Below, piece after piece: positions 34,485 through 52,386 of a DNA stretch of 60,462 bases. This DNA comes from Candidatus Rifleibacteriota bacterium (GTDB lineage Bacteria; Muiribacteriota; Ozemobacteria; Ozemobacterales; Ozemobacteraceae): assembly GCA_012517355.1 (NCBI GenBank), contig JAAYVD010000056.1, forward strand, positions 1-60,462, given 5' to 3'. Within the stretch, counting starts at the first letter, position 1, and each line of letters begins with the position of its first letter. A model generated the notes under the pieces. It ran no database searches. It had not been told where the DNA came from and saw only the letters and a program-made list of their open reading frames with translations. The position numbers and the translations under genes are program-made.

Positions 34485-35348
34485 TCACCGGCCCGGCTCC
34501 TGCCCCCGGTCCGCCCCCGCCCCCCGGGCGAGCTCCAGCCGGCCGATCTGGCTGTCGCGGCCAAGCAGGATTTCCATGACCTGGTTGGCCTGCAGCAGGG
34601 CCACCACCCCGACCCGGGGGGCCATCAGGCCGCGATGGGGGCCGGCCTCGGCGAGATCGTCGCCGCACACGTAGAGAGAGCCGCTGCGGCGGGTGTGCAG
34701 CAGATCGTTGCGGCCCCAGCCGGCCATCCCGAGTCCCATGACCAGAGGTTTTTCCGGGAACTCGCGCATGACCGCCTCGACCAGCATGGCCTTCTGGTCG
34801 GCCCGGTCGAAAGCCTCGACGAGCACGTCGGCCCGGCCGAACAGGGCGGCGACATTGTCGGGGGTGACCCGCACGGGATGCGGGTCGACCCGGACCGCCG
34901 GGTTGATCCGGCCCAGGGTGGCGGTCAGGGCGTCGACCTTGCGTTGGCCGATCTGGTCGATGAAGAACTGCTGCCGGTTGAGGTTGCTGGGCTCGACCAC
35001 GTCGAAATCGGCCAGGACCAGGGTGCCCACCCCGACGCGGGCGAGGGCCACCGCGACGGTCGAGCCGAGGCCGCCGCAGCCGGCGATGCCGACCACCGCC
35101 CGTTTCAGCCGGGCCTGCACCCCGGGGGTGTGACGGGCAGCCATCAACACATCCAGTTCCTCGGCGGTGGGGATCTCGCCCCGCCGGATCAGCACCAGAT
35201 GGTCGCCTTCCTGCAGCCGGGTAGCCGTGGCCACCGGGAACCCGTTGCAGATGAACACATCGGCGGCGGGTTTGTACAAGGCCGACACCAGGGCCACGGT
35301 GGCGTCAGCCTCCACCTCGACCGGCCGCTCGTTGACGAAGACGTTCAC
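34485..35348 (-). CDS. ThiS-ThiF fusion: E1-type adenylyltransferase
   Basis: This 287-residue protein has an N-terminal ubiquitin-like ThiS domain (about 1-62, VNVFVNERPVEV... LVLIRRG) without a Gly-Gly end, then a ThiF/MoeB fold: VGIAGCGGLGSTVAVAL (ATP loop), LADFDVVEPSNLNRQQF (Arg and Asp of the adenylation site) and FDRADQKAMLVEA. Zn-binding CxxC pairs of MoeB are absent, as in short anaerobe ThiF proteins. I start it at the GTG at 35348 since the ThiS strand begins there, but no ribosome site precedes it; a P2 element ends about ten bases upstream. It should activate the adjacent small ThiS-like protein. Confidence 0.8.
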   Translation of the reverse strand: MNVFVNERPVEVEADATVALVSALYKPAADVFICNGFPVATATRLQEGDHLVLIRRGEIPTAEELDVLMAARHTPGVQARLKRAVVGIAGCGGLGSTVAVALARVGVGTLVLADFDVVEPSNLNRQQFFIDQIGQRKVDALTATLGRINPAVRVDPHPVRVTPDNVAALFGRADVLVEAFDRADQKAMLVEAVMREFPEKPLVMGLGMAGWGRNDLLHTRRSGSLYVCGDDLAEAGPHRGLMAPRVGVVALLQANQVMEILLGRDSQIGRLELARGAGADRGQEPGR

Positions 35349-35358
35349 GTCAGGGGAA

Positions 35359-35418
35359 TTACGGGGACACAGGACCAAACAGCCGGATTTCCCGCAAAAA
35401 AGTCATGTGTGCCCGAAA
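35359..35418. repeat. P2 palindromic element
   Basis: TTACGGGGACACAGGAC (35359-35375) and GTCATGTGTGCCCGAAA (35402-35418) are imperfect inverted repeats. The second arm differs by one base from the arm at 47643-47659. It sits just upstream of the ThiS-ThiF start codon. Confidence 0.75.
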
Positions 35419-35426
35419 CTTCCTGG

Positions 35427-35454
35427 CAGGGGCGGCCACGAGGGGCCGCCCCTG
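35427..35454 (-). terminator. strong GC hairpin between the AOR gene and the ThiS-ThiF gene
   Basis: CAGGGGCGGCC and GGCCGCCCCTG form a perfect 11-bp stem with a 6-base loop. It may end or weaken the ferredoxin-AOR transcript. There is no U-tract, so partial read-through to the ThiF-like gene is possible. Confidence 0.45.
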
Positions 35455-35469
35455 CGGGAGCGTGGACAG

Positions 35470-35551
35470 CCCCTTTGCGATGCGCGAACCTAGCGTTTCG
35501 CGCCGCCATCCGTGACGGCAAGGGGGCACTTCCGACGTCGCGGCGGTCGGG
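35470..35551 (+). repeat. P1 palindromic element
   Basis: CCCCTTTGCGATGCGCGAAC, TAGCGTTTCGCGCCGCC, ATCCGTGACGGCAAGGGGG and TTCCGACGTCGCGGCGG follow the reference copy closely. It lies between the AOR gene and the ThiS-ThiF gene. Confidence 0.85.
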
Positions 35552-35575
35552 AGGGCAGTCGGACACGGGGCCGGC

Positions 35576-37774
35576 CTATTTCAGGTGCGGCTTGACCACC
35601 TCGACCACCTCGGGCAGGTCGATGCGACAGCGCTTGAGGGTCTCGAGGGTGGGCACGCCGTTGGGGGTCCAGCCGCGGCGTTTGTAAACGGCGTCCATCA
35701 GCTTCTGGTAGCGGTCTTCGCGGTATTTCCGGTGGAGGGCGATCTTTTCCTCGACGGTCTTGCCGGCGGGATCGACGCCGATCAGCTCCTTCAGCTGCTT
35801 GTCATACCGTTCCTGGCGCGACTCGTACTCTTCCTTCGTCACGGGGCCCTGCGAGCGGTAGGGCGGCACGTCGTGCTGGCGCAAACCCTTCCCCATGCGG
35901 ATGTTGAAGACGCGCTGGAACTGGTAGACCGTCTCGGACATGGCGATCAGGCCATCCTTTGTAAGGGTGCGGCCGGTGATACCGGTGAAGACGTCGCAGT
36001 AGTTCTGCACGTGCTCGGGCACCTTGGCAGCTTCGAGCGGCGGGTGCTGGTGGTTGTCGGGCGGTTCGACGTCGTTCCAGGGCAGCTTGCAGAACCCGTT
36101 GAGCCCGAACCAGGTGCGGAACAGGGGGAAGTAATAGAGGGCCTCGGCCTTGTTCTCAAAGGACGGGATCTGGTTGTTGACCATGTCCATGAAGATCAGC
36201 CAGGCTTCATCGTGTTGCGGGCCCTTGTTGGTGAGGGCGTAGCCGCCCTGCTGGGCCAGCGACTCCTTGGACATGTACTGGCTGTATTCCAGGCCCTTCA
36301 CTTCCATGCCGATGTCCCTGATCAGTTGCGGGTCGCCGTATTTCTTCGCGATGAATTCCTCTTTCATCTTCGCGATGCCCTGGCCGACGGTGACCCCGAA
36401 GCCGCTGCCGCGAGCCATCTGATGGAGCAGTTCGAGTTGTGACTCGGCATTGCCCCAGGTCAGGTCGAGGCCGCCGGTGCGCTCCTTGTTCAGGATGCCG
36501 CGCTGGAAGCACTCCATGACGAAGGCGCAGGAGGTGCCGAAGCTGATGGTATCGATGCCGTAGGTGTCGCAATAGAAGTTGGCCTCGAGCAGCCAGTCGG
36601 GGTCGAAGATGCCGCAGTTGGCGGCGCAGCCGGCGGCCGTCTCGTATTCGGGGCCATCGACGGTGACGATGTGGCCCTTGTAGGGGCCGGTCTTTACGAC
36701 GTGACCGTCGGCGCCCTTGCTGCACTGCATCGAACAGCCGTACCAGCAGCCGTCGGGAATGCCCTGGGTGAACCGCTCGTCCCAGATCCAGGAGGCGATC
36801 TTCTTGGTGTCGGGGTGGTTGCCAAACTGAAAATTGTGGACCGGCAGCAGGTCGTAGTTGTCCATGATCTCGACGAGATGGGCGGTTCCCTGGCGGCGCA
36901 TCTTGCACTGCTTGAGGTCGTGGTCGGCCAGTTCCTTGTGCATCTTGATGCCGGCCTTGGCCACGCGATCGAGATCAGCGGGCTTGTTCATGTCACCCTT
37001 GATGGGTGGGGCATGGACGACGAGGGCCTTCAGCTTCTTGTCGCGGAAGACGGTGCCGATGCCGCCACGGCCGGCCTGCTTGAGGCGGGCGGCCTGGCGC
37101 CGCACGTCGAACCAGCTGAAGTTGAGACAGCCGATGAGGGCGTGATCGGCCCCCTGGCCGGCGGCGACGACCGAGACGTTGCGAAGATCGGCGTGGTCCT
37201 TCGCGTACATGTGGGTGAACTGCTCGGCGGCCACGTGGCTGTTGGCATCTTCGTGCGGGGCTTCCTCGATGATCACCTTGCCGGCCTGGCCGTCGATCAC
37301 GATGATGCACTGGGTGGAGGCCTTGCCCTGGATCTCGATGGCATCGAAGCCGCTGAACTTCATCAGGGGTCCGAAGTAGCCACCGACGTTGGAATCGATG
37401 GGAATGCCGGTGGTGGGGGAAAGGGACACGACGAGGGATTTCCCCGAGCCGGGATACTGGGTATTGCCGCCCAGGGGCCCCGGACTGATGATGATCTCGT
37501 TTTCGGGGTCGTTCCATTTCGTGGTGGGCTTGATGGCGTTCCAGAGATACCAGAGGCCGAACCCGCGGCCACCGATGAAGAGGTCTTTCATCTGCTGGGT
37601 GACGGCTTTTTCCTTGATCTCGAGGGTGGTCAGGTTCACGTAGAGGGTGCGGTTGGTGTAGCCCTGGTCAGCCTGGCGGGGCGTGAACGTCCATTCCTTC
37701 AGGACCTTGTGGGCCTTCCGCATCTCGGGAACCTTGTCGTGGTAGGCGGTGCGCTTGGTGTAATCGTAAGCCAT
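35576..37774 (-). CDS. tungsten-type aldehyde:ferredoxin oxidoreductase family enzyme
   Basis: This 732-residue protein belongs to the AOR family, which uses a bis-pterin tungsten (or molybdenum) centre and one [4Fe-4S] cluster, often to oxidise aldehydes to acids with ferredoxin. N-terminal family motifs are visible: FIGGRGFGLWYLW, PENEIIISPGPLGG, GKSLVVSLSPTTG and NVGGYFGPLMKFSG. Cluster cysteines are in CWYGCSMQC, with a further Cys near the C-terminal third. It is longer than Pyrococcus AOR (605), with extensions at both ends, so its substrate may differ; BamB-like enzymes are also possible. GGAGAAG precedes the ATG. It follows the polyferredoxin gene by 29 bases. Confidence 0.92.
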   Translation of the reverse strand: MAYDYTKRTAYHDKVPEMRKAHKVLKEWTFTPRQADQGYTNRTLYVNLTTLEIKEKAVTQQMKDLFIGGRGFGLWYLWNAIKPTTKWNDPENEIIISPGPLGGNTQYPGSGKSLVVSLSPTTGIPIDSNVGGYFGPLMKFSGFDAIEIQGKASTQCIIVIDGQAGKVIIEEAPHEDANSHVAAEQFTHMYAKDHADLRNVSVVAAGQGADHALIGCLNFSWFDVRRQAARLKQAGRGGIGTVFRDKKLKALVVHAPPIKGDMNKPADLDRVAKAGIKMHKELADHDLKQCKMRRQGTAHLVEIMDNYDLLPVHNFQFGNHPDTKKIASWIWDERFTQGIPDGCWYGCSMQCSKGADGHVVKTGPYKGHIVTVDGPEYETAAGCAANCGIFDPDWLLEANFYCDTYGIDTISFGTSCAFVMECFQRGILNKERTGGLDLTWGNAESQLELLHQMARGSGFGVTVGQGIAKMKEEFIAKKYGDPQLIRDIGMEVKGLEYSQYMSKESLAQQGGYALTNKGPQHDEAWLIFMDMVNNQIPSFENKAEALYYFPLFRTWFGLNGFCKLPWNDVEPPDNHQHPPLEAAKVPEHVQNYCDVFTGITGRTLTKDGLIAMSETVYQFQRVFNIRMGKGLRQHDVPPYRSQGPVTKEEYESRQERYDKQLKELIGVDPAGKTVEEKIALHRKYREDRYQKLMDAVYKRRGWTPNGVPTLETLKRCRIDLPEVVEVVKPHLK

Positions 37775-37803
37775 GTCGCTCTTCTCCTTTGCGGGGCGGG
37801 TCG

Positions 37804-38208
37804 TCAGGCGGGCAGGCCGGCGTGGTCGGCCTCGGCCATCTGCAGGGCGCCCTTGGGGCAGTTTTTCACGCACTGGCCGCAAGACACGCACTTGAAGGGC
37901 ACGGTCTGACCGTGGGCGCGACGCATCGACTGGGTGGGGCAGAAGCCGACGCACATGAAACACCCGACGCAGGCATTCTTGTCGATCATGACGATGCCCG
38001 CCTTGTTGCGGGAGAGTGCCTGCACCGGGCAAACGGCGATGCACTGGCCGCACTGGTTGCAGACGTTGATCTCGTACCCCGCGTCCTTCTTCGTCACGCG
38101 AATCGCGGAAAACTGGGGATCGTCGTTCTTGAAGAACGTCTGGGCGCAGACCTTCTCGCAGGCCCTGACGCCCTCGCACTTGGTGACATCCGGCTTCACG
38201 AACTTCAT
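37804..38208 (-). CDS. polyferredoxin, probable AOR electron-transfer subunit
   Basis: This 134-residue iron-sulfur protein has three CxxCxxCxxxC motifs (CNQCGQCIAVC, CVGCFMCVGFC, CVSCGQCVKNC) and an N-terminal KCEGVRACEKVC, enough for four [4Fe-4S] clusters. It resembles CooF/HycB/BamC-like subunits that pass electrons between a catalytic subunit and a partner. It heads the oxidoreductase unit, 29 bases before the AOR gene, and probably forms a complex with it. GGAAAGGAGCCGAC precedes the ATG. A weak TTGACT box is seen upstream on the minus strand. Confidence 0.92.
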   Translation of the reverse strand: MKFVKPDVTKCEGVRACEKVCAQTFFKNDDPQFSAIRVTKKDAGYEINVCNQCGQCIAVCPVQALSRNKAGIVMIDKNACVGCFMCVGFCPTQSMRRAHGQTVPFKCVSCGQCVKNCPKGALQMAEADHAGLPA

Positions 38209-39615: not shown

Positions 39616-40545
39616 TCAGACCAGGGCGAGGGCCCGAGGCAGGAGGCCGATCTCGGCGGGCAGGAACCCGCGCGGATCGCCGTCGTATTCCACCTCGGGA
39701 GCCTCCGGGCAGGGAAGGATCTCCAGGTGGCGGCCGAACAGGGGGGGGAAGCGGCGCGTGATGCGCCCGGTGTAGACCTGGGGCAGCAGGGCCAGCAGCC
39801 GGGCCTTCGTCAGGGAATGCAGGGCCAGCACGTAGAACCGGCCGTCGTCAGGCGCGATGTCGACCGCCAGTTTGATGCCGGAGGCGACCCGTGGCCCTTT
39901 GCCGACGAACAGGTTGAACAGCCGGGGAAAGGCGAGGTCGTGACCGTCCAGGCGCAACCGGAAGGTCGGGGTGCCGTAGCGGGCGATGGCGCCGACGAGG
40001 GAAAGCAGGGTGCCAGGCAGGTCGCCGAACCGCCGGCGCAGCCCGGAATTGGCTCCCCGGGCCACGGCCGCCCCCAGGCCGAAATTCGCACAGCAACTGA
40101 ACACGCGGGTCACCGTCGGCCCGTCAGGGAAGACCCGGTGGGTGATACGGCAGACGTCGATCCGGCGGCGGCGGTTCGCCACCAGCCGATCGAGGGCCGT
40201 CTCCAGGGCGAGGGGGATGCCGTGATTGCCGCAGAAATCCGGGCTGGTGCCGGTGTAGAGCACCCCGAAGGCGGCCCTCCCCTGCTCGTCGCCCGGCCCG
40301 AACAGGCCGTTGATGACGTCGTTGATGGTGCCGTCACCGCCGACGGCAACCACGGTGTCGAACCCGCGCCCGACGGCCTCCCGGGCGAGGTCGGCCGGGT
40401 CCCCGTCTTTCGTGGTCAGGGCGAAGTCGAAGGCGAGCCGCCGCCGGCGCAAACCGTCAAACAGGGCGGGCCAGACCTCCCGCGACCGGAAGGAGCGCGA
40501 CGAGGGATTCATGACGAGGAACAGACGCGAGGCGGGAGTGGTCAC
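39616..40545 (-). CDS. diacylglycerol kinase-family lipid kinase
   Basis: This 309-residue protein has the DAGK catalytic fold: FLVMNPSSRSF at the start, VVAVGGDGTINDVINGLFG (the GGDGT nucleotide site) and GVLYTGTSPDFCGNHGIP, then a beta-sandwich C-domain ending in the EYDGDP region. The family includes diacylglycerol, sphingosine, ceramide and YegS-type lipid kinases. The start is a GTG at 40545 without a clear ribosome site; the ATG at 40512 would remove part of the first strand. It lies downstream of the ketosynthase/oxoamine synthase operon in the same direction, so it might phosphorylate that lipid product. Confidence 0.85.
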   Translation of the reverse strand: MTTPASRLFLVMNPSSRSFRSREVWPALFDGLRRRRLAFDFALTTKDGDPADLAREAVGRGFDTVVAVGGDGTINDVINGLFGPGDEQGRAAFGVLYTGTSPDFCGNHGIPLALETALDRLVANRRRRIDVCRITHRVFPDGPTVTRVFSCCANFGLGAAVARGANSGLRRRFGDLPGTLLSLVGAIARYGTPTFRLRLDGHDLAFPRLFNLFVGKGPRVASGIKLAVDIAPDDGRFYVLALHSLTKARLLALLPQVYTGRITRRFPPLFGRHLEILPCPEAPEVEYDGDPRGFLPAEIGLLPRALALV

Positions 40546-41008: not shown

Positions 41009-42304
41009 TCAGGTCTCCGGGTAGAGGCCCAGCCGCTGGTACAGCCGGGTGGGCTTCCCCTTTTTCCAGGTGGGAACCAGCTTCTCGGTGAGGTGGCGGG
41101 GAAGCGGGGTGGTGGTCAGGCCGTTCTCCTGAAGGGTGCGGTGGATGGAGGATGCCTCGGTGGCGCAGAGCCAGCAGGTGCCGGGCCGGGGGAAGTGCCG
41201 TCGCATGCGGGCAAAGATCGTCTTGAACTCCTCCTGCTGGACGTTGCCGAACGAGACGTTGAGGAATTCGCAGGGTTGCACCTCGCCGTTGGCGTTGAGA
41301 TAGAACCGGTCGATGCCGCCCGCCGTGCAGCCGAAATGCGTGGGCTGTTCCTCGAACACCTGGACCGAGGCCGAGGTGGCTTTGGCGAAGGTGCCGGGGC
41401 CGTTGTGCTCGAGATGGAACCGGCACAGGCGGTCGATCTTCTCGCGGGCCGCGATCATCTCGTCCTGGCGGCCGAGCCAGGCGCCGGCCGACTTCCCGTG
41501 GATGATCTGGACAAAGGCGCACCGCCATTCCTGGGCGATGGCCATGATGCGTTCGAGTCCGCCCTGCTCGACGAGTTCGGCGGTGGGGCAGCTGTTGAGG
41601 GCGACCGTGATGCCCGCCTCCCGGAACATCCGGGCGGCGTCGCGGGCGATGCCGAACGACCCGGGAAGGCCGGTGAAGCGGTCGTAGCTGGCTTCATCGG
41701 GGGTGTGCAGGGAGATCATGACGCCGTAGACCCCGGCCTCCTTCAGGCGCCGTGCCTTGTCGGGCGTGAGGAGGTGACCGGTGGTGTTGACCCAGATCTC
41801 GCGCCGTCCGTCGAAGGCGGTCAGCAGGTCGAGCAGGCGGTCGAACCGGAGGAGCGGCTCCCCGCCCTCGATGTCGAACATGGTGACGCCGAGATCCTGC
41901 ATCTCCCGGGCCGTTTTCGTCAGCAACCCGATCTCGAGATCGGCGCCTGTGTCGTTGCGCTGGTAGCAGTGGGGACAACGGTAGCCGCAAGCCTTGGTCA
42001 TCGAGAAGACCACGGTCAGGGGGCCGGGGTCGGGGCGCCGGAACTTGTCGATCGATTCCCAGAAGGCCGGCGAAGGGTAGGCGGGCAGGTAGAGCTGTAA
42101 TTTGTACAAACTCCCGGTTTGTACCACCTTGTTCCGGACCATCGGTTTCAGGAGCAGGATCAGCCGCCAGATCAGGCGGGCAAACCGGATCGGGCAGATC
42201 TCGCCGCGGAACAGTGCCAGAAGATACCGGAAGAACACGTGCAGCATCAGGCGGACATAGAACAGGCCCTTGGCCGTTCCGGTCAGGAACCGGGGTTCGT
42301 TCAT
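41009..42304 (-). CDS. radical SAM enzyme with SPASM-like C-terminal cysteines
   Basis: This 431-residue protein has an amphipathic or membrane-associated N-terminus (about 10-55), then the radical SAM motif CGYRCPHCY (Cys 106, 110, 113) and EGGEPLL near 147. The C-terminal third holds more cysteines (FGCTAGG, VQPCEFLN, CWLCATE), suggesting an auxiliary Fe-S cluster as in SPASM proteins. AGGAGGT precedes the ATG, which overlaps the SDR gene stop by four bases. It is the last gene of the ketosynthase operon and could modify the lipid chain or head group by radical chemistry; the exact reaction is unknown. Confidence 0.88.
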   Translation of the reverse strand: MNEPRFLTGTAKGLFYVRLMLHVFFRYLLALFRGEICPIRFARLIWRLILLLKPMVRNKVVQTGSLYKLQLYLPAYPSPAFWESIDKFRRPDPGPLTVVFSMTKACGYRCPHCYQRNDTGADLEIGLLTKTAREMQDLGVTMFDIEGGEPLLRFDRLLDLLTAFDGRREIWVNTTGHLLTPDKARRLKEAGVYGVMISLHTPDEASYDRFTGLPGSFGIARDAARMFREAGITVALNSCPTAELVEQGGLERIMAIAQEWRCAFVQIIHGKSAGAWLGRQDEMIAAREKIDRLCRFHLEHNGPGTFAKATSASVQVFEEQPTHFGCTAGGIDRFYLNANGEVQPCEFLNVSFGNVQQEEFKTIFARMRRHFPRPGTCWLCATEASSIHRTLQENGLTTTPLPRHLTEKLVPTWKKGKPTRLYQRLGLYPET

Positions 42305-43395
42305 GGGGTGACCTCCTGTGGCAGGAACTGGTACCGGCGCCACCAGCGGACGGTCTTGCGGACCGCCCGTGACAGCGGGGTGAAGGACGTGAAACCGAAC
42401 GCACGCTGCACCTTGTCGACGGCATAGACGTTGTCGGCGGCGAACATGGTGAGCCGCGCCCGGGTGAACAGGGGCGGGGAGGCAGCGCCGGCCAGGGTAT
42501 ACAGGAATTCGAGCAGGATGGCCAGCGGCAGGAGCAGGGCCGGCGGGAAGGGGACGGGCTGCGGGCGGCCGAGCGCCTGGCAGAACAGCGACCAGAAGGC
42601 ATCCATGAGGGGGACGTCGGGCTGGCCCGCGTTGAAGACGTGGAGGCCGGTCGGTTGGTGTTCGGCAATGGTCAGGACGAGGCGGGCCAGGTCCTCCACG
42701 AAGATGACGTGGAACCGGTTGCGTCGCGATCCTGGCATGAGGGGAACCCCACTCAGGACGGTCTGGCAGTATTCGAACGGGCCGGCGTGGAACTCGCGAG
42801 GCCCGAAGACCCAGACGGGGCGCACGACCGTGAGGTCGATCCCACGCCCCTCGGCTTTGCTCATCACCGCTTGTTCGGCCAGGGTCTTGGTCAGGCGGTA
42901 GTGGTTCATCGCCGAGGGCAGCCACGATTCGAGCGGGTAGGGCAGCAACGGCCGGTAGGGAGCAGCCTCGTCCTTGGGGATGGGGCAATCCTCCTCGCCC
43001 AGCACCGCGTTGCTGCTGATCAGGATCAGCCGCGGAGGGCGGGCCGGCGACCCGGAGCCGACCGGCTCCACAGCCCGCGGCAGGGCGTGGGGAGGGGGGG
43101 CCATCGCTTCCACCAGATGCAGGCTGCCTTCGACGTTGGCCGCGAAGAACTCGGGATAGCTTCCCCAGTCGGAGACCTTCCCGGCAGCGTGGATGACGAG
43201 ATCGAAGCGTGGAACCACGGCGTCGAGCAGGCCCCGGTCGGCGAGGTCGCCTTCCAGGATCTCGACGGGATAGCGGTCCAGGAACCGGCGGGACGAGGTC
43301 TTCCGCACCAGGGCGGTGACCCGGTGCCGGCGGCAGAAGACCTTGACCAGGTGGCTGCCGATGAAGCCCGCCGCGCCCGTGATCAGCACCTTCAT
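42301..43395 (-). CDS. NAD(P)-dependent extended SDR (3-beta-HSD/epimerase family)
   Basis: This 364-residue protein has the Rossmann motif TGAAGFIGSHL at residues 6-16, ILEGDLADRG, VIHAAGKVSDWG and the active-site pair in HYRLTKTLAEQ (YxxxK). A hydrophobic segment near 285-302 (ALLLPLAILLEFLYTLAG) suggests membrane association. Extended SDRs of this type reduce or oxidise 3-keto/hydroxy groups. In Caulobacter a similar SDR (CerR) sits beside serine palmitoyltransferase and an ACP and acts in sphingolipid synthesis. It overlaps both neighbours by four bases. Confidence 0.88.
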   Translation of the reverse strand: MKVLITGAAGFIGSHLVKVFCRRHRVTALVRKTSSRRFLDRYPVEILEGDLADRGLLDAVVPRFDLVIHAAGKVSDWGSYPEFFAANVEGSLHLVEAMAPPPHALPRAVEPVGSGSPARPPRLILISSNAVLGEEDCPIPKDEAAPYRPLLPYPLESWLPSAMNHYRLTKTLAEQAVMSKAEGRGIDLTVVRPVWVFGPREFHAGPFEYCQTVLSGVPLMPGSRRNRFHVIFVEDLARLVLTIAEHQPTGLHVFNAGQPDVPLMDAFWSLFCQALGRPQPVPFPPALLLPLAILLEFLYTLAGAASPPLFTRARLTMFAADNVYAVDKVQRAFGFTSFTPLSRAVRKTVRWWRRYQFLPQEVTP

Positions 43396-44843
43396 GGGGA
43401 CGGCCCGTCGAGGTGGAGTTTCCCCTTCAGGTCTTCGAGGACCGACAGGAGCAGGTCGAGGTCGGCGCGCGTGTGGGTGGAGGACAGCGACAATCGCAGG
43501 CGGGCCCGGCCGCGGGCCACCGCGGGGAAGGTGACCGGGGTGACGTAGAGGCCACGTTCGTGCAGTTCGCGGCAGGCGAGGCGGAGCTTGTGCTCGTCAG
43601 GAATGAGGACGGGGATGATCGCGGTCGTGGAGCCGAGGGTGTCGAACCCGAGCCGGTGGAGCCCGTCGAGGAGGTAGGCGGTGTTGGCCTGCAAGGCCTG
43701 CCGGGGGGCCGGGTCCTCTTCGAGGAGGCGGAACACCTCGATCAGGCCGGCCACGGTCGGGGCAGGGAGGCTGGTCGAAAAGATGTAGGAACGGGCGAAA
43801 TGGCGCACGTATTCGACCACCTCGCGGCGGCCGGTGAGGTAGCCGCCCAGGCCGGCCGGGGCCTTCGACAGGGTGCCGATCGTCAGGTCGATCTTCCCTT
43901 CCAGGCCGAACACCTCGGCAGTGCCGCGGCCGGTCGGCCCGACGATGCCGAGGGCGTGGGCCTCGTCGATGAGCAGGCGGGCGCCGTGGCGCCCGGCCAA
44001 GGCGGCCAGGCGGTCGAGGGGCGCGAGGTCGCCGTCCATGCTGAAGACGCCGTCGGTGACGATCAGCCGGCCGAGGAAATGCTTCCCGGCCTTGCGCAGC
44101 AAGGCCTCGAGCGCCTCGGGATCGTTGTGGGGGAAGTATTTCAGGGTTCCCTCGCTCAATTGCACCCCGTCGATGATCGAGGCGTGGGCATACAGGTCGG
44201 CCAGGGCCACGTCGCGCGGCCCGAGCAAGGCCTGGATGGTGCCGACATTGGCGTGATAGCCGGAGGGGAAGAGGCAGGCCGCCTCGCAGCGGTAGAACCG
44301 GGCGATGCGCGCCTCGAGCTCGAGGTGCAGATCGGAAGTGCCGCTCATCAGGGCCACCGAACCGGAACCGTAGCCGTGGGTGGCCGCCGCGCGCCGGGCC
44401 GCCTCGACGACCCGCGGGTGGGTCGCCAGGCCCAGGTAGCTGTTCGACGCGAACAGGATCATCTCGCGCTCCGCGCCGGTCTGTGGATCGCGCACCCGGA
44501 CACGGTTGCCGCAGGCGGTGGTGAGGACCCGCCGGTAGAAATACCCGCCCGCGTCCTGGACGGCCTGCAGCCGGGGCAGGAAGGCTTGGGCCTTGGCGAA
44601 CAGGTCGGGGCTGTCAGGGGGAGGTTCGTACAGGGCCTCGGTGGTGGCCGGCCCGCCGCCTGCTCCCATGAGCGGGTCTTCGGCAGAGTGAGGGCCACCC
44701 GCAACATTCCCCGCCGCGACGCTTTCCTTCTGGCCTGCGGCGGGTCGGGGGTCACCCGCCTCGTTGCCCAGGGGGCGATCCCCGGGGTCGGGGGCCGGGG
44801 GCATTCCAGGCACGGGACCTGGGGTGACGGGCTTTCCGGTCAT
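43392..44843 (-). CDS. alpha-oxoamine synthase family PLP enzyme (AONS/KBL/serine palmitoyltransferase-like)
   Basis: This 483-residue enzyme condenses an amino acid with an acyl thioester and releases CO2. PLP-site features are visible: FASNSYLGLATHP, GSVALMSGTSDLH, the stacking His at 220 (LYAHAS), DEAHALGIVG (Asp 293, His 296) and the PLP Lys 327 in TIGTLSKAPAGLGGYL. An extra 70-90 residues at the N-terminus are Gly/Pro/Ala-rich. It has GGAGGTTGCC before the ATG and overlaps both neighbours by four bases. With an ACP, ketosynthase and dehydratase in the operon and no other biotin genes, a long-chain keto-amine (sphingoid-like) product is more likely than biotin. The amino acid used cannot be told. 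Confidence 0.85.
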   Translation of the reverse strand: MTGKPVTPGPVPGMPPAPDPGDRPLGNEAGDPRPAAGQKESVAAGNVAGGPHSAEDPLMGAGGGPATTEALYEPPPDSPDLFAKAQAFLPRLQAVQDAGGYFYRRVLTTACGNRVRVRDPQTGAEREMILFASNSYLGLATHPRVVEAARRAAATHGYGSGSVALMSGTSDLHLELEARIARFYRCEAACLFPSGYHANVGTIQALLGPRDVALADLYAHASIIDGVQLSEGTLKYFPHNDPEALEALLRKAGKHFLGRLIVTDGVFSMDGDLAPLDRLAALAGRHGARLLIDEAHALGIVGPTGRGTAEVFGLEGKIDLTIGTLSKAPAGLGGYLTGRREVVEYVRHFARSYIFSTSLPAPTVAGLIEVFRLLEEDPAPRQALQANTAYLLDGLHRLGFDTLGSTTAIIPVLIPDEHKLRLACRELHERGLYVTPVTFPAVARGRARLRLSLSSTHTRADLDLLLSVLEDLKGKLHLDGPSP

Positions 44844-45940
44844 GCGGCAACCTCCTGGAGGGCGGCCAGGGCTTCGATCAGTCCCTGCGCCGAACCTGAA
44901 ATGGAAATGCCGACCGGCCGGAGATCGAGTCCCAGCCAGCAGATCAGCGCCCGGCCGTCCGCCGTGAAGGTTTCGACGGTGAGCTTCCCGTCGGACGCGG
45001 TCGTCACCCGGCAGGTGATGCCGGACAACCCGGTCGCGGCAGCGGCGCCGTACGTCTCCCCGGGGAATGGCTGGCGATCCAGCTCCGGGAGGGGCATTGC
45101 TGCCGGGTCGCTTCCTGGCACCCCCGTCGGAACCCGTTCTGGCATCCCTGGCGCACCCTGTTCTGGCATTCCCGTCACATCGGGCCCCTTCACCCCGGAG
45201 GAGACGGTTGCCAGGCTGTCCGCCTGGGGCCCCGCGGCCAGGCGCGAACCTGGCTTGGCGGGCGGCCTGCCAGGGCAGCCAGGACCCATGGCCGACCTCG
45301 TGTCGGTCGGCCCGGCGCCGACCAGGGGAACCGGCCGCTCGTAGCCGGCGGCTCCCCAGGGCAGGGTGTAGCCGCCGCCGCGGCCGAGCAGGGTGAGGCC
45401 CGCCGCCTGCAGGGCGAGATCGCCAAGGACGCAGGCGGCCGCCCGGTCGGGCCCCAGACAGGCCAGGGAGGCCGGCCGCGGGGCGATCCCCGTCCAGGCG
45501 AAGACCGCCTCGGCAGGAGAGAAGCGCCAAACCTGCAGGTCGGCCTGGAAGGTGGGTCCGTGCCGCAGGATGGCCGGATAGAGATTCCGGCGGGGCCAGG
45601 CGAGGACCGGTGGGGTTGTCGCCCGGGGCGGGGGGCCGGCGAGGGAATGCCGGCCGGTGGCCGCGGTGGCGGAGAACAGCGGCCGGCCTGCCCCGTCGCG
45701 GGCCTCGAAACGGGTCGGGGTGCGGGCGTATTCCACCTCGCGTTCGCGGCCCTTGCGGAGCATGAGGGGAGCTTCCAGGCGGAGATCGGCCAGGCCGCCA
45801 TCCGCCACCGGGGTGACGCCATCGGTGACCAGTTCCAGGAGCGACTCGGCGAGGACGACGAACGGGACGAAGGGGGTTCCCTCCAGCTGGTGATCAGCCA
45901 GGTAGGGGTCGGTGGCGAGCGAGAACAGGCGTTTGCCCAT
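44840..45940 (-). CDS. polyketide-synthase-type dehydratase (double hotdog), contains P1 insert
   Basis: This 366-residue stand-alone protein matches PKS dehydratase domains. The HxxxGxxxxP motif is exact (His 17, Gly 21, Pro 26 in DHQLEGTPFVP), ILRHGPTFQ marks the second hotdog, and the Asp-x3-Gln pair is at Asp 184/Gln 188 in LGDLALQAAG. It should dehydrate a beta-hydroxyacyl chain carried on the neighbouring ACP. Residues about 210-237 derive from a P1 repeat and the region to about 290 is low complexity, so the second half is interrupted but in frame. It starts six bases after the ACP gene. Confidence 0.8.
   Translation of the reverse strand: MGKRLFSLATDPYLADHQLEGTPFVPFVVLAESLLELVTDGVTPVADGGLADLRLEAPLMLRKGREREVEYARTPTRFEARDGAGRPLFSATAATGRHSLAGPPPRATTPPVLAWPRRNLYPAILRHGPTFQADLQVWRFSPAEAVFAWTGIAPRPASLACLGPDRAAACVLGDLALQAAGLTLLGRGGGYTLPWGAAGYERPVPLVGAGPTDTRSAMGPGCPGRPPAKPGSRLAAGPQADSLATVSSGVKGPDVTGMPEQGAPGMPERVPTGVPGSDPAAMPLPELDRQPFPGETYGAAAATGLSGITCRVTTASDGKLTVETFTADGRALICWLGLDLRPVGISISGSAQGLIEALAALQEVAA
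45229..45311 (+). repeat. P1 palindromic element inside the dehydratase gene
   Basis: GCGGCCAGGCGCGAACCTGG, TTGGCGGGCGGCC and GCCGACCTCGTGTCGGTCGG match P1, with a diverged middle. On the minus strand it encodes PTDTRSAMGPGCPGRPPAKP, the same frame as the P1 segments in both SpoIIE proteins. Confidence 0.75.
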
Positions 45941-45946
45941 CGGCGG

Positions 45947-46201
45947 CTACTTGGGCAGCGACTCGAAATAGTCGGCGATGGCGTTGATCGAGGTGAACCG
46001 CTTCAGCTCAGAATCGTCGATCATGAGGTCGAGGCGGTCTTCGATGAAGTTGACGACCTGGATGGCCTTGAGGCTGTCGAGGCCGAGCGCGAACAGGTTG
46101 TCGCCGTACCGTTCGGGGGGGATGCGGAGCCGGGTGACGGTGGCGATGGCTTCGAGGACGATGGTGACCAGTTCGTCGCGGGTCAGGGCGGGCCGTTTCA
46201 T
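45947..46201 (-). CDS. acyl carrier protein
   Basis: This 84-residue four-helix protein has the phosphopantetheine serine in FALGLDSLKAIQVV (the GLDSL motif, Ser about 43). The charge pattern is less acidic than fatty-acid ACPs, as in specialised ACPs. It carries the growing chain for the ketosynthase, dehydratase and possibly the oxoamine synthase. It overlaps the ketosynthase gene end by four bases and is followed by the dehydratase gene. Confidence 0.93.
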   Translation of the reverse strand: MKRPALTRDELVTIVLEAIATVTRLRIPPERYGDNLFALGLDSLKAIQVVNFIEDRLDLMIDDSELKRFTSINAIADYFESLPK

Positions 46202-47463
46202 GCCGATCTCCTCGTGGTGGCGTGGGGGTTGCGGCCGTAGACGACGGCCATGTGGGTGCCGGCGAAGCCGAAGTTCAGGAAGAGCATGGTGCCGATCCCG
46301 TATCCGGCATAGGCCCGGGCGTCGTAGTAGGCATTGGCCCGGATGCGGGGGTCGGGTTCGAACACGTTCCGCACCTCGGGCACGCGGCTGTCACGCAGGC
46401 AGGTCAGGGCCAGGGCCCCTTCGCTGACGGCCTGGACCCCGAAGGTGGATCCCAGAAAGCTCTTGAAGGCGAACAGCGGAACGCGCCGCACGTCGTCGCC
46501 CATGATCTCGCACAGGGCTTCCGATTCGTACGGATCGCAGGCGGGGGACCCGGAGGCCGAGCCGGCCACGAAATCGATGGCCGAGGGCGGCAGGTTCGCG
46601 TCGTCGAGGGCATCGCGGATCGACAGCAGGATGTCGGCGGGGGAAGGCTTGACGAAGTCGGCCGACCCGTTCGAAAGGCCGAATCCCAGGATGCGGCCGT
46701 ACCAATCGGGGTGGGCCTCCCCCTCGCGCTCGAGGACGAAACAGCCGGCCGCCTCGGCCACCACCAGGCCGTCACGGGTGCGGCAGTAGGGGCGACAGGC
46801 GGTGGCGGGGTCGTCGTTGCGATGCGACAGCACCCGGATCTTGTTCCACAGGTGGAAGGTGCCGGTCTCGAGGCAGACGTCGACCCCAACGACGATCGCC
46901 CGGTCGACCACGCCGGTCTTGATCAGCCGGTCGGCCTGCAGGACGGCGTTGAGCGAACTGGAACACGACGAACTGACGAACCAGCACGGGCCCTTGATGC
47001 CGAACAGATCGGCAAGGCGGGCCGGCAGGTAGCTGTTCATGCCGTGGATCAGGGAGGTGATCTTGTACAAATGATTCAGGAAGTAGTCCTTGACCAGGCC
47101 GGCCACCTCCAGATAGTTGCCGAGGCTGCTGGCCACCAGGAGGGCGGTGCGGCGGGGCTGCCGCCGGATAGCCTCGGCGATGCCGGCCTCGGCGATCGCC
47201 TCCTGGACCACGTAGACGGCGGCCTTGACATAGTCCTGGCGCAGGTCCTCCTCGCTCATGCGTGAGACGAGCCCGGGGGGGAGGATGCTCCAGGGAATGG
47301 GGGGAACCAGCCCGGCGAACCCGGTGCGGGTCTGCGGGGGAAGTTCGAACCGCTCGATCGGCCGGATGCCGGTCTTCTTTTCCGCGAAGAGGCGGACGTT
47401 CTCTTCCCGTCCGATGCCAGCCGACGAGATCAGGCCAATGCCGGAAACCACCGTGCTTCCCAT
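46198..47463 (-). CDS. beta-ketoacyl synthase homologue with Cys but no catalytic histidines
   Basis: This 421-residue thiolase-fold protein aligns with FabF/KAS II. The nucleophile Cys 167 lies in FVSSSCSSSLNAV and Lys 334 in FAFKSFLGS is kept. The His of the NAHGT motif is replaced by Ser 302 (VAGSASGSP) and the His of the KSxxGH motif by Ser 339. Without both His it may not decarboxylate malonyl-ACP; it could act as an acyltransferase, a priming enzyme or a partner subunit. GGAGAGG precedes the ATG at 47463. It is the first gene of the six-gene operon and has its own promoter. Confidence 0.85.
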   Translation of the reverse strand: MGSTVVSGIGLISSAGIGREENVRLFAEKKTGIRPIERFELPPQTRTGFAGLVPPIPWSILPPGLVSRMSEEDLRQDYVKAAVYVVQEAIAEAGIAEAIRRQPRRTALLVASSLGNYLEVAGLVKDYFLNHLYKITSLIHGMNSYLPARLADLFGIKGPCWFVSSSCSSSLNAVLQADRLIKTGVVDRAIVVGVDVCLETGTFHLWNKIRVLSHRNDDPATACRPYCRTRDGLVVAEAAGCFVLEREGEAHPDWYGRILGFGLSNGSADFVKPSPADILLSIRDALDDANLPPSAIDFVAGSASGSPACDPYESEALCEIMGDDVRRVPLFAFKSFLGSTFGVQAVSEGALALTCLRDSRVPEVRNVFEPDPRIRANAYYDARAYAGYGIGTMLFLNFGFAGTHMAVVYGRNPHATTRRSA

Positions 47464-47754: not shown

Positions 47755-48744
47755 ATGGACGGCGCGGCAGTGAAGCGGTTTTTGTGGGCCTACGTCAAGA
47801 CGATGCGGCTGTATTATGCCTTCATCACGGGCATCGCCGGCTGGATCGGGGTTTCCTTCTACCATCACCTGATCGAGCGGGCGGGCGGCACGGTGACGAC
47901 CGAGACGTATCAACGCAGCGTGTTCATCCTGGTCATCCTGTTCGCCAGCTGGGGCATCAACCAGGTCTTCAACGACTGGCTGGGCCTCGAGGAGGACCGC
48001 ATCAACGCCCCCAACCGTCCGATGGTCACCGGCGAACTCGACGTCCGGTGGGCGCTGACCCTGTCAGGGTCGCTGATGGCGGCGGCGGCGGTGCTCACCT
48101 GGTTTTTGAACCCGGCCGCCCTCGTGCCCATGCTGCTGGGGTTCGTGCTGAACTTCGTCTACAACTACAGCAAGGCCTGGGGGTTGTGGGGAAACGTCAT
48201 CTTCGGCCTGATGATCGCCAACTGCACGGTCTACGGCTTCCTGGCCGCCGGACCCACCCCGATCCCGTTCGTCACCACCAACCGCCTCTGCACCGTCCTG
48301 CTGGTCGCCGTGATGAACGGCCTGATGACCTACTACACCTACTTCAAGGATTACGAGGGCGACAAGGCGGCCGGCAAGGACACCTTCATCGTCCGGCACG
48401 GCATCGAGACCGCCCGCAAGGTCGGCATCGTCGGGGCGTTCCTGCCGACCCTCGCCTTTTTGTTCGTGCGCATGATGGGATGGTTCCCCTTCGAGATCAC
48501 CCATTACTTCCTGTATTGCGCCACGATGACCCTCTTCCTGCAGATCTGGACGGCGGTGCGCTTCTACAACCACCCGGTGGGACCGAAGGCCTATTTTTCC
48601 AACGCCACCAACTTCCGGGCCTGCGCCTGCGGCCAGGTGACCTTCATCTCGATCTTCAACGGCCCGCTCGCCCTCTACCTGTTCAGCTTCACCTACGTCT
48701 TCATCGGGTTCCTGTTCGGTTTCCACGAAGATGACAAGGGCTGA
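47755..48744 (+). CDS. UbiA-family membrane prenyltransferase
   Basis: This 329-residue integral membrane protein has about eight or nine hydrophobic helices. The two Asp-rich motifs that bind prenyl diphosphate through Mg2+ are seen as NDWLGLEEDRINAPNRP (near 65-82) and YFKDYEGDKAAGK (near 200). UbiA enzymes attach prenyl chains to aromatic or lipid acceptors for quinones, haem or lipids. The start could also be a GTG at 47770; neither has a strong ribosome site. It overlaps the next gene by 14 bases. The acceptor is unknown; the neighbouring ketosynthase operon could supply it. Confidence 0.9.
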   Translation: MDGAAVKRFLWAYVKTMRLYYAFITGIAGWIGVSFYHHLIERAGGTVTTETYQRSVFILVILFASWGINQVFNDWLGLEEDRINAPNRPMVTGELDVRWALTLSGSLMAAAAVLTWFLNPAALVPMLLGFVLNFVYNYSKAWGLWGNVIFGLMIANCTVYGFLAAGPTPIPFVTTNRLCTVLLVAVMNGLMTYYTYFKDYEGDKAAGKDTFIVRHGIETARKVGIVGAFLPTLAFLFVRMMGWFPFEITHYFLYCATMTLFLQIWTAVRFYNHPVGPKAYFSNATNFRACACGQVTFISIFNGPLALYLFSFTYVFIGFLFGFHEDDKG

Positions 48745-50137
48745 CCACCCCGCCTTCCGGCCCCTCGCCCTCGCGCGGGTCACCCTCCCCCACCGGATCG
48801 TCCGCGCGGCCACCTACGACAATCTCGCCACGCCCGATGGCAGGCCGACCGCGGACCAGGGCGACCTGTTCGCCCGCCTGGCCGCCGGGGGGGCCGGAAC
48901 CATCATCACCGGGTTCGCCTACGTCTCGCGGCAGGGTCGGGCCATGCAGGCCGGCCAGGCCGGCATCGATGCCGACGACAAGATCGAACCCTGGCGAAGG
49001 GTGCTGGAACCGGTGCGCCGGGCCGACCCCGGGGCGAAAGTGTTCCTGCAGATCGCCCACACCGGCCGGCAGACGATCAGCCGTGCCACCGGCCGGCCGG
49101 TGGTCGGCGCCGGGCCGGTGCGGTGCACCTACTTCCTGTCGCCGGTGCGGACCCTGACCGAAGCCGAGGTGCGGGCGAAGGTGGAAGAATTCGTGCGGGC
49201 GGCGGAGCGGGCCCAGCGGGCCGGTTTTGACGGGGTACAGGTGCATGCCGCCCACGGCTACCTGGTCCACCAGTTCCTGTCGCCCCACACCAACCGGCGC
49301 CACGACGCCTACGGGGCCGACCCTCTCCGGTTCCTGCGCGAGATCGTGGCAGGCATCCGGGAACGGACCTCCCTGGCCGTCCTGCTCAAGCTGAGCGGGG
49401 CCGAGGATCAGCCACGCGGGCTGACCATCGACCGGGTCGTCGGGTATGCCCGGGCCATCGACGGGTGGGGCGTCGACGCGCTCGAGATCAGTTACGGCAC
49501 CATGGAGATCCCCTTCAACATCATCCGGGGCGGGCACCCGGTCGACGTCGCCTTGCGCCACAACTTCCTGTTCACCCGGTTCGGCGCCCCGTTCATCCGG
49601 TTCTTCCGGCAGTTCGTCTATCCATGGTACAAGAGACGGTTCATCGCCTATGCCGACCTGTACAACCTGGGCAACGCACGCCGGATCAAGCAGGCGGTCC
49701 GGACCCCGGTGTTGGTCACGGGTGGGGTCCGCAGCGGCGACCAGATCCGCCGGGTGCTGGAAGAGGACGGTCTCGACGGAGTGACCCTCTGCCGCCCGTT
49801 CATCCGGGAACCGGACCTGGTGCGGCGACTGCAGGACGACCCGCGGTGGCGGTCGTCCTGCGTCAGCTGCAACCTCTGCACCGTGCTGTGCGACAGCCCC
49901 CACCCCCTGCGGTGCTGGCTCGGCGACCCCGCCGCGGCCGGGGGGGGCGGCGACCGCCCCCACGCCTCACGCGCGGCGGTTGCTGAGCCCGGCGAGCCAC
50001 CCGCGAACCGAGGAGACGCCCTGACCCACCCCCCGGCCGCGTCCGATGACGACCCTGGCCATTCAGGGGAGCACCACGGCCCTTCCGACCGCAAGGCGGA
50101 CGGGGCGCGGGGAGGCCCGGCGACGTGTTCGTCGTAG
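48731..50137 (+). CDS. Old-Yellow-Enzyme-family NADH:flavin oxidoreductase
   Basis: This 468-residue protein has an FMN TIM barrel: VQVHAAHGYLVHQFLSPHTN with the substrate-binding His pair, GADPLRFLREIV, GVDALEISYGT and VLVTGGVRSGDQI (phosphate loop). CVSCNLCTVLC near 380 could bind an Fe-S cluster, as in the larger 2,4-dienoyl-CoA reductase-type members, but the second flavin domain is missing. The last 70 residues are low complexity and include a P1-like fragment. It overlaps the UbiA gene by 14 bases and the MMPL gene by 13. It probably reduces an enone or double bond of the locus product. Confidence 0.85.
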   Translation: MTRADHPAFRPLALARVTLPHRIVRAATYDNLATPDGRPTADQGDLFARLAAGGAGTIITGFAYVSRQGRAMQAGQAGIDADDKIEPWRRVLEPVRRADPGAKVFLQIAHTGRQTISRATGRPVVGAGPVRCTYFLSPVRTLTEAEVRAKVEEFVRAAERAQRAGFDGVQVHAAHGYLVHQFLSPHTNRRHDAYGADPLRFLREIVAGIRERTSLAVLLKLSGAEDQPRGLTIDRVVGYARAIDGWGVDALEISYGTMEIPFNIIRGGHPVDVALRHNFLFTRFGAPFIRFFRQFVYPWYKRRFIAYADLYNLGNARRIKQAVRTPVLVTGGVRSGDQIRRVLEEDGLDGVTLCRPFIREPDLVRRLQDDPRWRSSCVSCNLCTVLCDSPHPLRCWLGDPAAAGGGGDRPHASRAAVAEPGEPPANRGDALTHPPAASDDDPGHSGEHHGPSDRKADGARGGPATCSS

Positions 50138-52386
50138 AGTATCTCGCCGCCCTCTGCCAGGACCTGGCCGACCGGTTCGCCCGGCCCATCGGGGTCGTGC
50201 TCGCGTTCGTGTTCCTCGTCTTCGGGCCGTCCCTGCTGCCGCTCAGGATCAACAACACGCTGGCCACCCTGCTCGAGGAGGGCACCCCCGAGGAGGCGCT
50301 CGACCGGTCGGTCAAGCAGGTGTTCGGCGACCTCGACGAGATCCTGATCCTGGTCTACTCGCATCCCGACCTGTTCACCCCCGCCAACCTCACCGTGGTC
50401 AAGACGATGACCGACCGGGTGGCGGCCATCGAGGGAGTCCGAGACTGTTTTTCCCTGTCGACGACCCCCTTCTTCCGCAACGTTTCCGAGGGGGGGGAAA
50501 CGGTCCTGCACACGGCCCCGCTGCTCGAGGTCATCCCCACCGATACGGTGGCCCTGCGGCAGCTCCGGCGCGACGCGCTCGACAACCGGCTGTTCGTCAA
50601 GAACATCGTCTCCCCCGACGGCCGGACGGCCGCCCTCAACATCGTCTTCGAGCCCGATGTCGAGCCCTTCCGCAAGGAGGCCATCGTTCGCGAGATCCGT
50701 CACCTGATGCGCGAGCAGCCCGTGCCGGCGGGGGGCCGGTTCGAACTGACGGGGATGCACGCCTTCATGGAGATCACGGGCGCGACCATGCAGCGCGACG
50801 TCGAGGTGTTCAGCGCCCTGTCGCTGCTGGTACTGTTCTTCGCCCTCCAGTTCCTGTTCCGCTCCTTCGTGCTGGCGGGCGTGGGGCTGCTGGCCGCCGT
50901 GGTCGCCAACGGCCTGCTCTTCGTCACCCTGCACCTGCTGGGCCGGATGTTGTCGATCTCGACCACCCCCGTACCCGCCATCACCATGGGCCTGGCGCTG
51001 GCCTATTCCCTGCACTTCCTCGTGGCGAAGCACGAGGGGCACCTCGACGACCCGCACGAGGTGCGGGAGATCTTCATCGGGGCGTTCTTCTCGGGCCTGA
51101 CCTCGGTCATCGGGTTCCTCTCGCTCTGCCTGAACCCGATCCCGACCCTGCAGGATTTCGGCCTCTACGCGGCGATCGGGACCTTCTTCGCGGGCTGGAC
51201 CGCCCTGTTCGTCACCTACCCCGTCCTGCGGGCGGTGCCGCACCCCCCGCACCCGAAGTTCGCCCGGCGGTTCAAGTTCCTGCTGCGCTTCGCCACGGCG
51301 CGGTTCCGCGGGGCCATCCTGGCCGTGGCCCTCCTGTTCCTGCTGGCGGGTGGCCTGATCCCGCGCATGGAGGTGCAGACCGATTACTACCGGTATTACC
51401 TGACCTCCTCGCCCATGACCCGGGCGGTCGATTTCGTCAACCGGTCGGTCGGCGGCCAGTATCCGATCGTCGTCGAACTCGACACCGGGCGGCCGGAAGG
51501 GGCGCACGAGGCCCGGGTGCTGCAGTTCATCGCCCGGTTCAAGGCCCGGTTCGAACAGGTGGAAGGGGTCGACAAGGTCATCACCTGGCTCGACCTGCTG
51601 AACGAAGGCTGCCGCGCCTTTGCCGACACGCCGGCCGCCACCTGGTACGACGATCCGGCGAAGGTGGCCCAGGTCGCCATGGTGGTCCATGACGCCAACC
51701 CGTCCCTGAACGGGTATTACGTCAACGACCGGGCCGACAAGACCCTGCTGTTCGTGCGCACCAGCCACATCAACTCGGCCAGCTTCGCCTCCATCCACCG
51801 CGGCATCCGGGAGTTCCTCGCCGCCGAGGGCCCGGCCGGGGTGTCGTGGAAGGTGGGCGGCACCTACCTGCGCTGCGTGCAGTCGGCCGACCGCATGGCC
51901 GTTTCCCAGTTCGAGGGAACCTTCTGGGAGATCATCGTGCTGTTCGGGTCGGCCTTTTTCATCATCCGCTCGGTGCGGCTGACGGTCATCGCCTTCCTGG
52001 CCAATCTGCTGCCCATCTTCGGCGTCTACGGTCTGCTCAGCCTGCTCGGGGAGACCCTGAACATGGGCACCACGATGATCGCCGCCATCTCGCTCGGCAT
52101 CGGGGTCGACGACACCATCCACTACGTCGTCCGCTACCTGGCCGCCTACCGGAAGCACCGCAAGGTCGTGGCCGCCACGAAGGAGGTCATCCGCTCCACC
52201 GGCGTCTCGATGTTCCTGGCCGCCTCGATGATCGCCCTGTCCTTCCTGACCCTGGCGTTCAGTTCGATCAAGCCCATCTACCAGCTCGGCGTCTACACCG
52301 TCGTGACGATGGCCCTCTGCTTCGCCGCCAACATGCTCCTCGTCCCCGTCCTGATCTCCCGCTGGATGCGCCCCGGAAAAGAATGA
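50125..52386 (+). CDS. RND/MMPL-family membrane transporter
   Basis: This 753-residue protein has the two-halves RND layout: transmembrane helix 1 (about 20-38), a periplasmic domain, helices 2-6 (about 225-380), then helix 7 (about 398-415), a second periplasmic domain and helices 8-12 (about 600-745). GIGVDDTIHYVVRYLAAYRKH in the second half carries the acidic proton-relay motif. Two-half, SSD-like proteins of this size export lipids or hopanoids (HpnN, MmpL). The start is a GTG with GGGAGG upstream. It is the last gene of the UbiA unit, so it is the likely exporter of the lipid made here. Confidence 0.88.
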   Translation: MFVVEYLAALCQDLADRFARPIGVVLAFVFLVFGPSLLPLRINNTLATLLEEGTPEEALDRSVKQVFGDLDEILILVYSHPDLFTPANLTVVKTMTDRVAAIEGVRDCFSLSTTPFFRNVSEGGETVLHTAPLLEVIPTDTVALRQLRRDALDNRLFVKNIVSPDGRTAALNIVFEPDVEPFRKEAIVREIRHLMREQPVPAGGRFELTGMHAFMEITGATMQRDVEVFSALSLLVLFFALQFLFRSFVLAGVGLLAAVVANGLLFVTLHLLGRMLSISTTPVPAITMGLALAYSLHFLVAKHEGHLDDPHEVREIFIGAFFSGLTSVIGFLSLCLNPIPTLQDFGLYAAIGTFFAGWTALFVTYPVLRAVPHPPHPKFARRFKFLLRFATARFRGAILAVALLFLLAGGLIPRMEVQTDYYRYYLTSSPMTRAVDFVNRSVGGQYPIVVELDTGRPEGAHEARVLQFIARFKARFEQVEGVDKVITWLDLLNEGCRAFADTPAATWYDDPAKVAQVAMVVHDANPSLNGYYVNDRADKTLLFVRTSHINSASFASIHRGIREFLAAEGPAGVSWKVGGTYLRCVQSADRMAVSQFEGTFWEIIVLFGSAFFIIRSVRLTVIAFLANLLPIFGVYGLLSLLGETLNMGTTMIAAISLGIGVDDTIHYVVRYLAAYRKHRKVVAATKEVIRSTGVSMFLAASMIALSFLTLAFSSIKPIYQLGVYTVVTMALCFAANMLLVPVLISRWMRPGKE

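Follow-up and report, generated by a model that had tools for sequence, protein, structure and literature searches.

Most of what is known of bacterial sphingolipid genes comes from Proteobacteria and Bacteroidota. The rhodobacterial set, as found in Caulobacter, comprises acpR-aasR-spt together with cerR and bcerS (PMC9386255, PMC11087976, PMC10331486), and serine palmitoyltransferases (SPTs) that use a dedicated acyl carrier protein (ACP) have been described (PMC9386255). Here we analyzed a six-gene operon located at positions 41009-47463, on the minus strand, of contig JAAYVD010000056.1, whose full 60,462 nucleotides are referred to as the window. The contig belongs to a metagenome-assembled genome (MAG) of the family Ozemobacteraceae (Riflebacteria; 7.1 Mb, 184 contigs, 96% complete), and the closest named relatives of its radical SAM gene were those of Candidatus Ozemobacter and other Candidatus Riflebacteria MAGs. 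The operon and its neighbors would form a lipid locus that is conserved and has a core of the sphingoid type, a reading to which we assign a probability of about 0.62, with substrates, step order, and product inferred. The genes of the operon and, after them, those flanking it are as follows.

46198..47463, minus strand: KS, FabF-like ketosynthase homologue, 421 aa (Pfam ketoacyl-synt, alignment to FabF structures)
45947..46201, minus strand: ACP, dedicated acyl carrier protein with an LGLDSL phosphopantetheine site, 84 aa (PP-binding, sequence)
44840..45940, minus strand: DH, stand-alone dehydratase of the polyketide synthase (PKS) type, double hotdog, 366 aa (PKS_DH_N, motifs, Foldseek)
43392..44843, minus strand: AOS, alpha-oxoamine synthase dependent on pyridoxal phosphate (PLP), 483 aa (Aminotran_1_2, phylogeny, catalytic residues)
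42301..43395, minus strand: SDR, extended-type short-chain dehydrogenase/reductase (HpnA/OleD/CerR-like) with YxxxK, proposed ketone reductase, 364 aa (Epimerase)
41009..42304, minus strand: rSAM, radical SAM/SPASM enzyme, marker gene of the locus, 431 aa (Radical_SAM plus SPASM)
39616..40545, minus strand: lipid kinase of the diacylglycerol kinase (DAGK)/YegS type with GGDGT (profile match, synteny)
47755..48744, plus strand: UbiA-family prenyltransferase (profile matches, synteny)
48731..50137, plus strand: NADH:flavin oxidoreductase resembling old yellow enzyme (OYE), adjoining UbiA in relatives too
50125..52386, plus strand: resistance-nodulation-division (RND)/MMPL exporter of the HAE3 type, kept in relatives

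The six genes named in the original prediction were all confirmed at these coordinates and on this strand, each assignment being backed by a Pfam match above the cut-off (ketoacyl-synt, PP-binding, PKS_DH_N, Aminotran_1_2, Epimerase, and Radical_SAM plus SPASM). Five of the six had been said to overlap their neighbors by four bases. Such overlaps (ATGA) were indeed present at KS/ACP, DH/AOS, AOS/SDR, and SDR/rSAM, as was a 6-base gap between ACP and DH, but they amount to four of the five junctions. The GC content at third codon positions of the operon (0.83 to 0.91) was in keeping with the coding style of the window.

Conservation of the locus in two phyla

The order KS-ACP-DH-AOS-SDR-rSAM-DAGK was found in six further Ozemobacteraceae genomes (seven with the window; the KS of G003 is truncated at a contig end), with identities to the window of 62 to 72% for AOS, 60 to 63% for KS, and 61 to 71% for rSAM; the ACP homologues in syntenic loci were 56 to 65% identical. 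Since the same gene order recurs in six other genomes of the family, the operon is not a chance arrangement. In one sister genus (g4; G005, G012, and G017), all ten genes are collinear and in one direction, as UbiA-OYE-RND-KS-ACP-DH-AOS-SDR-rSAM-DAGK, followed by a ThiL-like kinase gene, which also comes next after DAGK in G004. The lipid kinase gene, which lies 463 bases past rSAM in the window, follows it immediately in the relatives, while the UbiA, OYE-like, and RND/MMPL genes (47755-52386) lie upstream of KS in divergent orientation. Within the phylum the locus was limited to this family: rSAM was present in 10 of 40 Riflebacteria genomes, every one of them Ozemobacteraceae. UbiA and rSAM co-occurred in 9 of 37 relatives, each being found alone in one (Fisher P = 8e-7, kinship ignored), even though UbiA is distant from rSAM in G003, G007, and G014, the three genomes with a LolA-like gene near the locus. 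The functional unit exceeds the six genes, the DAGK, UbiA, OYE, and RND genes belonging to it as well.

Ozemobacter sibiricus (G001) and G002 retained SDR-rSAM and UbiA-OYE-RND at 66 to 82% identity (DAGK, 63% in G001), while KS-ACP-DH-AOS was swapped for another ACP-AOS-KS cassette, without DH. The AOS and KS of this cassette were 35 to 37% and 25 to 28% identical, respectively, to those of the window, and its KS was canonical (Cys-His-His, with HGTGT and GH motifs). In G004, the divergent ACP and AOS lay on another contig.

The synteny search for the six-gene order, suggested in the original prediction, led beyond Ozemobacteraceae to a different core in Victivallales. rSAM was detected at E < 1e-100 in 7 of 48 genomes of a Victivallales order; UbiA lay immediately upstream of it in all seven loci, DAGK and the ThiL-like gene were present in six (the seventh, L117, is cut off by its contig end), and AOS and SDR followed or flanked the loci wherever the contig was long enough. 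In one of them (L115), UbiA-rSAM-DAGK-ThiL-AOS-SDR was collinear within 6.4 kb, with identities to the window of 52% for AOS, 61% for UbiA, 47% for rSAM, and 40% for DAGK. The core common to both phyla is therefore UbiA-rSAM-lipid kinase-(ThiL-like)-AOS-SDR, not the six genes that had been taken as a unit; KS, ACP, and DH, which it lacks, are a front end of Ozemobacteraceae. Two Victivallales loci (L118 and L119) showed the same accessory genes (UbiA-rSAM-kinase-SDR) with a different AOS (see below). That this gene core recurs in an unrelated phylum points to a bacterial lipid pathway of a type not yet described.

Plasmid relatives of rSAM gave weak matches only, and that of Haliovirga (25%) had no AOS nearby. 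Next to this distant homologue, on a Haliovirga abyssi plasmid (L088:5845-8147), is a protein of the KAS III type, with an MMPL transporter not far away; the region is perhaps another radical SAM lipid locus.

Phylogeny of the oxoamine synthase

Residues His220, Asp293, His296, Lys327, and Arg450 of the window AOS align with SPT residues, and the PLP site is intact. In the best tree, the seven window-type AOSs formed a clade of their own (100/100), joined by the rSAM-linked AOSs of Victivallales (93/94), and the next branch contained AOSs from polyketide loci of Methylocystis and Thioclava (97/97). The SPTs formed a separate clade (99/97), with BioF and 5-aminolevulinate synthase (ALAS) elsewhere in the tree. 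The AOSs of L118 and L119 fell inside the SPT clade, grouping with the Bacteroides-type branch (92/90), and their best model was SerpalmtaseCFB (481 to 493 bits).

A grouping of the window-type AOSs with BioF was rejected (approximately unbiased [AU] test, P = 0.013), and bioB was not above the cut-off in the 96% complete genome (best, 90 of 225 bits). Together these results rule out a role as BioF, which the original prediction had named among the outcomes that would overturn it. The phylogeny places the window AOS on the SPT side of the family, as an enzyme distinct from BioF, 2-amino-3-ketobutyrate CoA ligase (KBL), ALAS, and SPT sensu stricto.

The adjacent Methylocystis and Thioclava branch favors another product, a secreted amino-polyketide instead of a membrane lipid, since the plasmid loci in question carry ACP, AOS, AMP-ligase, KS, and phosphopantetheinyl transferase (PPTase) genes. 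KS, ACP, and DH would then build a short chain to which AOS would add an amino acid, with tailoring by SDR, rSAM, and OYE and export by the RND protein; the canonical KS of the sister cassette is in agreement with this scheme. We consider it unlikely, however, given that the window KS is devoid of both catalytic His residues, that the locus contains no acyltransferase, thioesterase, PPTase, or AMP-ligase, that the cross-phylum core is entirely without KS, ACP, and DH, and that a lipid kinase and an RND/MMPL exporter are present.

Other AOS-family genes were observed in the host genome and elsewhere. A second AOS locus on contig C143 (L052:5653-8602) encodes, one after the other, a thymidylate-kinase-like NTPase, AOS2, and DAGK2. 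Orthologues of AOS2 (69 to 88% identity) were present in no fewer than five other Ozemobacteraceae genomes, and the locus is possibly a second sphingoid pathway. On contig C95 (L053:7962-9791), an AOS-like domain in which the catalytic Lys, His, and Asp are apparently replaced (SFGQAAG for FSK) is fused to an N-terminal part of about 170 residues with a DLSQSG motif, PilZ-like by eye with no Pfam match. This protein has probably lost AOS activity and perhaps acts as a sensor. Finally, the IncP plasmid pPNP1 of Pseudomonas sp. JS425 (L066) bears fatty acyl-AMP ligase-SDR-ACP-SPT flanked by IS5-family transposase copies, with an SPT above its NCBIfam cut-off (618 of 500 bits), which is perhaps a mobile sphingolipid cassette.

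Ketosynthase, dehydratase, and proposed pathway

The window KS keeps the active-site Cys167, while the His of the HGTGT motif is Ser302 and that of the KSxxGH motif is Ser339 in the alignment to FabF structures. The Cys-His-His triad of condensing ketosynthases (FabF and type II PKS KSs) is therefore absent, and the change is general: in all six aligned KSs (window plus five homologues), the Cys was kept and both His (FabF H303 and H340) were replaced by Ser or Thr. The Cys of a KS can still carry an acyl chain and hand it on. Because both catalytic His are replaced, KS is probably not the chain builder that the original prediction had assumed, and a KS0-like acyl-loading enzyme seems the better description. 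Elongation in spite of the missing residues would agree with the 60 to 63% conservation, with the retention of Cys and Lys334, and with the neighboring DH, whose catalytic motifs are intact. It is nevertheless quite improbable, as the His residues driving decarboxylation are lost in every sequence aligned, SDR is the only ketoreductase candidate beside KS, and His-to-Ser replacement in HGTGT is taken as the sign of a non-elongating KS0, from which condensation is not expected (PMC4661987). Unlike such KS0s, the window KS stands alone, keeps its Cys, has lost both His, and has an ACP and an AOS as its operon partners. For their part, the ACP-dependent SPTs of Rhodobacteria require a dedicated acyl-ACP synthetase, AasR (PMC9386255), and since none is encoded in this locus, KS may fill that role. 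AmcF was considered as an acyltransferase parallel and was not used as precedent, its published description being that of a working KS.

The DH homologues were only 28 to 31% identical, yet the catalytic motifs DHxxxGTPFVP, YPxxxxHGPxxQ, and DLxxQ were invariant in the seven aligned sequences. The double-hotdog fold and the HxxxGxxxxP, GPxxQ, and DxxxQ motifs assign the protein to the PKS dehydratases, and all 50 Foldseek matches listed were PKS or fatty acid synthase entries with a dehydratase domain. By SPT chemistry, a DH acting before AOS would place a trans double bond at C4-C5 of the sphingoid base; the well-known route to this double bond is through the sphingolipid delta-4 desaturase. 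This enoyl route is proposed tentatively, as the least secure step.

In the proposed pathway, the His-less KS would load an acyl chain from fatty acid synthesis onto its Cys and pass it on from there to the dedicated ACP, and DH would dehydrate 3-hydroxyacyl-ACP to trans-2-enoyl-ACP, the weakest step. AOS would join the acyl- or enoyl-ACP to an amino acid, with loss of CO2, to give a 3-keto sphingoid base; the 2-enoyl donor would yield the 4,5-trans double bond without oxygen. Serine is the leading candidate for the amino acid, although the odds that AOS uses it are about even. The ketone would then be reduced by SDR, the base or its N-acyl form phosphorylated by the DAGK-type kinase, the lipid tailored by UbiA, rSAM, and the OYE-like flavoprotein, and the product exported to the cell envelope by the RND/MMPL protein.

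Several properties of these proteins bear on the scheme. SDR has YxxxK and is 25.6% identical (E = 2e-9), a distant match, to a Sphingomonas reductase encoded beside acpR-spt, and bacterial DAGK-fold kinases act on ceramide and dihydrosphingosine (PMC10331486). UbiA retains the NDxxxxxxDxxNAPxRP and KDxxGDxxxG motifs, its most similar profiles being archaeal-type prenyltransferases, including geranylgeranylglycerol-phosphate geranylgeranyltransferase. An archaeal-type ether lipid was rejected as the product, as no PcrB/GGGP synthase was found in the host genome. rSAM belongs to the radical SAM/SPASM enzymes (CxxxCxxC and a C-terminal SPASM Cys set); its structural matches were generic radical SAM proteins only, and in its poor AlphaFold model, residues 9-32 and 38-55 form two helices at the N terminus, which perhaps serve membrane binding.

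The sphingoid-like or amino-keto lipid of the original prediction is thus favored by an AOS on the SPT side, by homologous Victivallales loci with an SPT-clade AOS, and by a distant SDR relative, its class being inferred. Other observations weigh against the sphingoid-type reading. In the comparison of AOS with SPT, 8-amino-7-oxononanoate synthase, and KBL, suggested in the original prediction, BioF was rejected, the window AOS was placed outside the SPT clade (exclusive clade with SPT, AU P = 0.036), and a grouping with KBL withstood the test (P = 0.099). The substrate may therefore be an amino acid other than serine. The window AOS was below every NCBIfam cut-off (bioF, 385 of 426 bits; kbl, 369 of 460; SPT-CFB, 322 of 640; other SPT models, 301 of 500 and 231 of 670). 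Chain building may matter in the sister cassette, given its canonical KS and lack of DH. The locus encodes neither an N-acyltransferase nor an acyl-ACP synthetase, the literature search gave no sphingolipid precedent for the rSAM or UbiA reactions, and AlphaFold modeling was of low confidence (pLDDT, 55 for DH and 59 for rSAM). A housekeeping BioF or KBL in the operon by accident would fit the top score with bioF, the best PDB matches, which were KBL, and the KBL grouping, but is highly implausible in view of the scores under every cut-off, the missing bioB, the rejected BioF grouping, the ACP in the same operon, and the synteny across two phyla.

A wider proposal, which we regard as doubtful, is that a class of sphingoid lipids not yet described, with UbiA and rSAM/SPASM as modifying enzymes, is common to Riflebacteria and Victivallales. 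In Ozemobacteraceae, an acyl-loading KS and the DH would lead to a 4,5-trans base without oxygen, and in the lineages with the ThiL-like protein, two serial kinases could make a lipid diphosphate for UbiA.

Elsewhere in the window, an aldehyde:ferredoxin oxidoreductase gene beside a ThiS/ThiF-like one (34485-38179, minus strand) is likely a tungsten-enzyme cluster, and 53967-58070 (plus strand) encodes a UvrD-type helicase fused to a PD-(D/E)XK nuclease domain, AddA/RecB-like.

Comparison with known systems

In a literature search, no described locus or cluster matching the whole operon was found, nor any sphingolipid locus with its own dehydratase and radical SAM enzyme, as the original prediction had supposed. 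If the sphingoid-type reading is correct, such lipids would extend to Riflebacteria and Victivallales and would be tied to radical SAM and UbiA chemistry, not found in the sphingolipid literature searched; an unsaturated base could arise by a route that needs no oxygen and is open to testing, and the rSAM protein would be a clean marker for finding producers.

The plasmid polyketide loci of Methylocystis and Thioclava share with the window the ACP-AOS pair and a neighboring AOS branch (97/97), but carry AMP-ligase, PPTase, class III aminotransferase, and acyl-CoA dehydrogenase genes, with no UbiA, rSAM, or lipid kinase gene in the stretch examined. The SPT of Bacteroides finegoldii (700 bits; cut-off, 640) adjoins a gene of the diacylglycerol kinase family, an association of an AOS-family enzyme with a DAGK-type kinase also seen in the loci under study, and the L118 and L119 AOSs belong to this SPT branch. 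In contrast, no ACP, KS, DH, UbiA, or rSAM is annotated beside the Bacteroides gene, and the window AOS forms a separate clade.

With respect to the Caulobacter type, the window adds a His-less KS and a PKS-type DH with the ACP, plus UbiA, rSAM/SPASM, OYE, and RND, and its AOS stands outside the SPT clade. AasR and bCerS were not among the locus genes, the genome beyond the locus not having been searched for either. Thus, although its AOS does not qualify as an SPT and two Caulobacter-type parts are missing from it, the locus resembles the bacterial sphingolipid pathway in its working: both have a dedicated ACP (45947-46201 in the window) beside an SPT-like PLP enzyme, an SDR-type reductase, and a DAGK-fold lipid kinase, which in Caulobacter is CpgB (PMC10331486).

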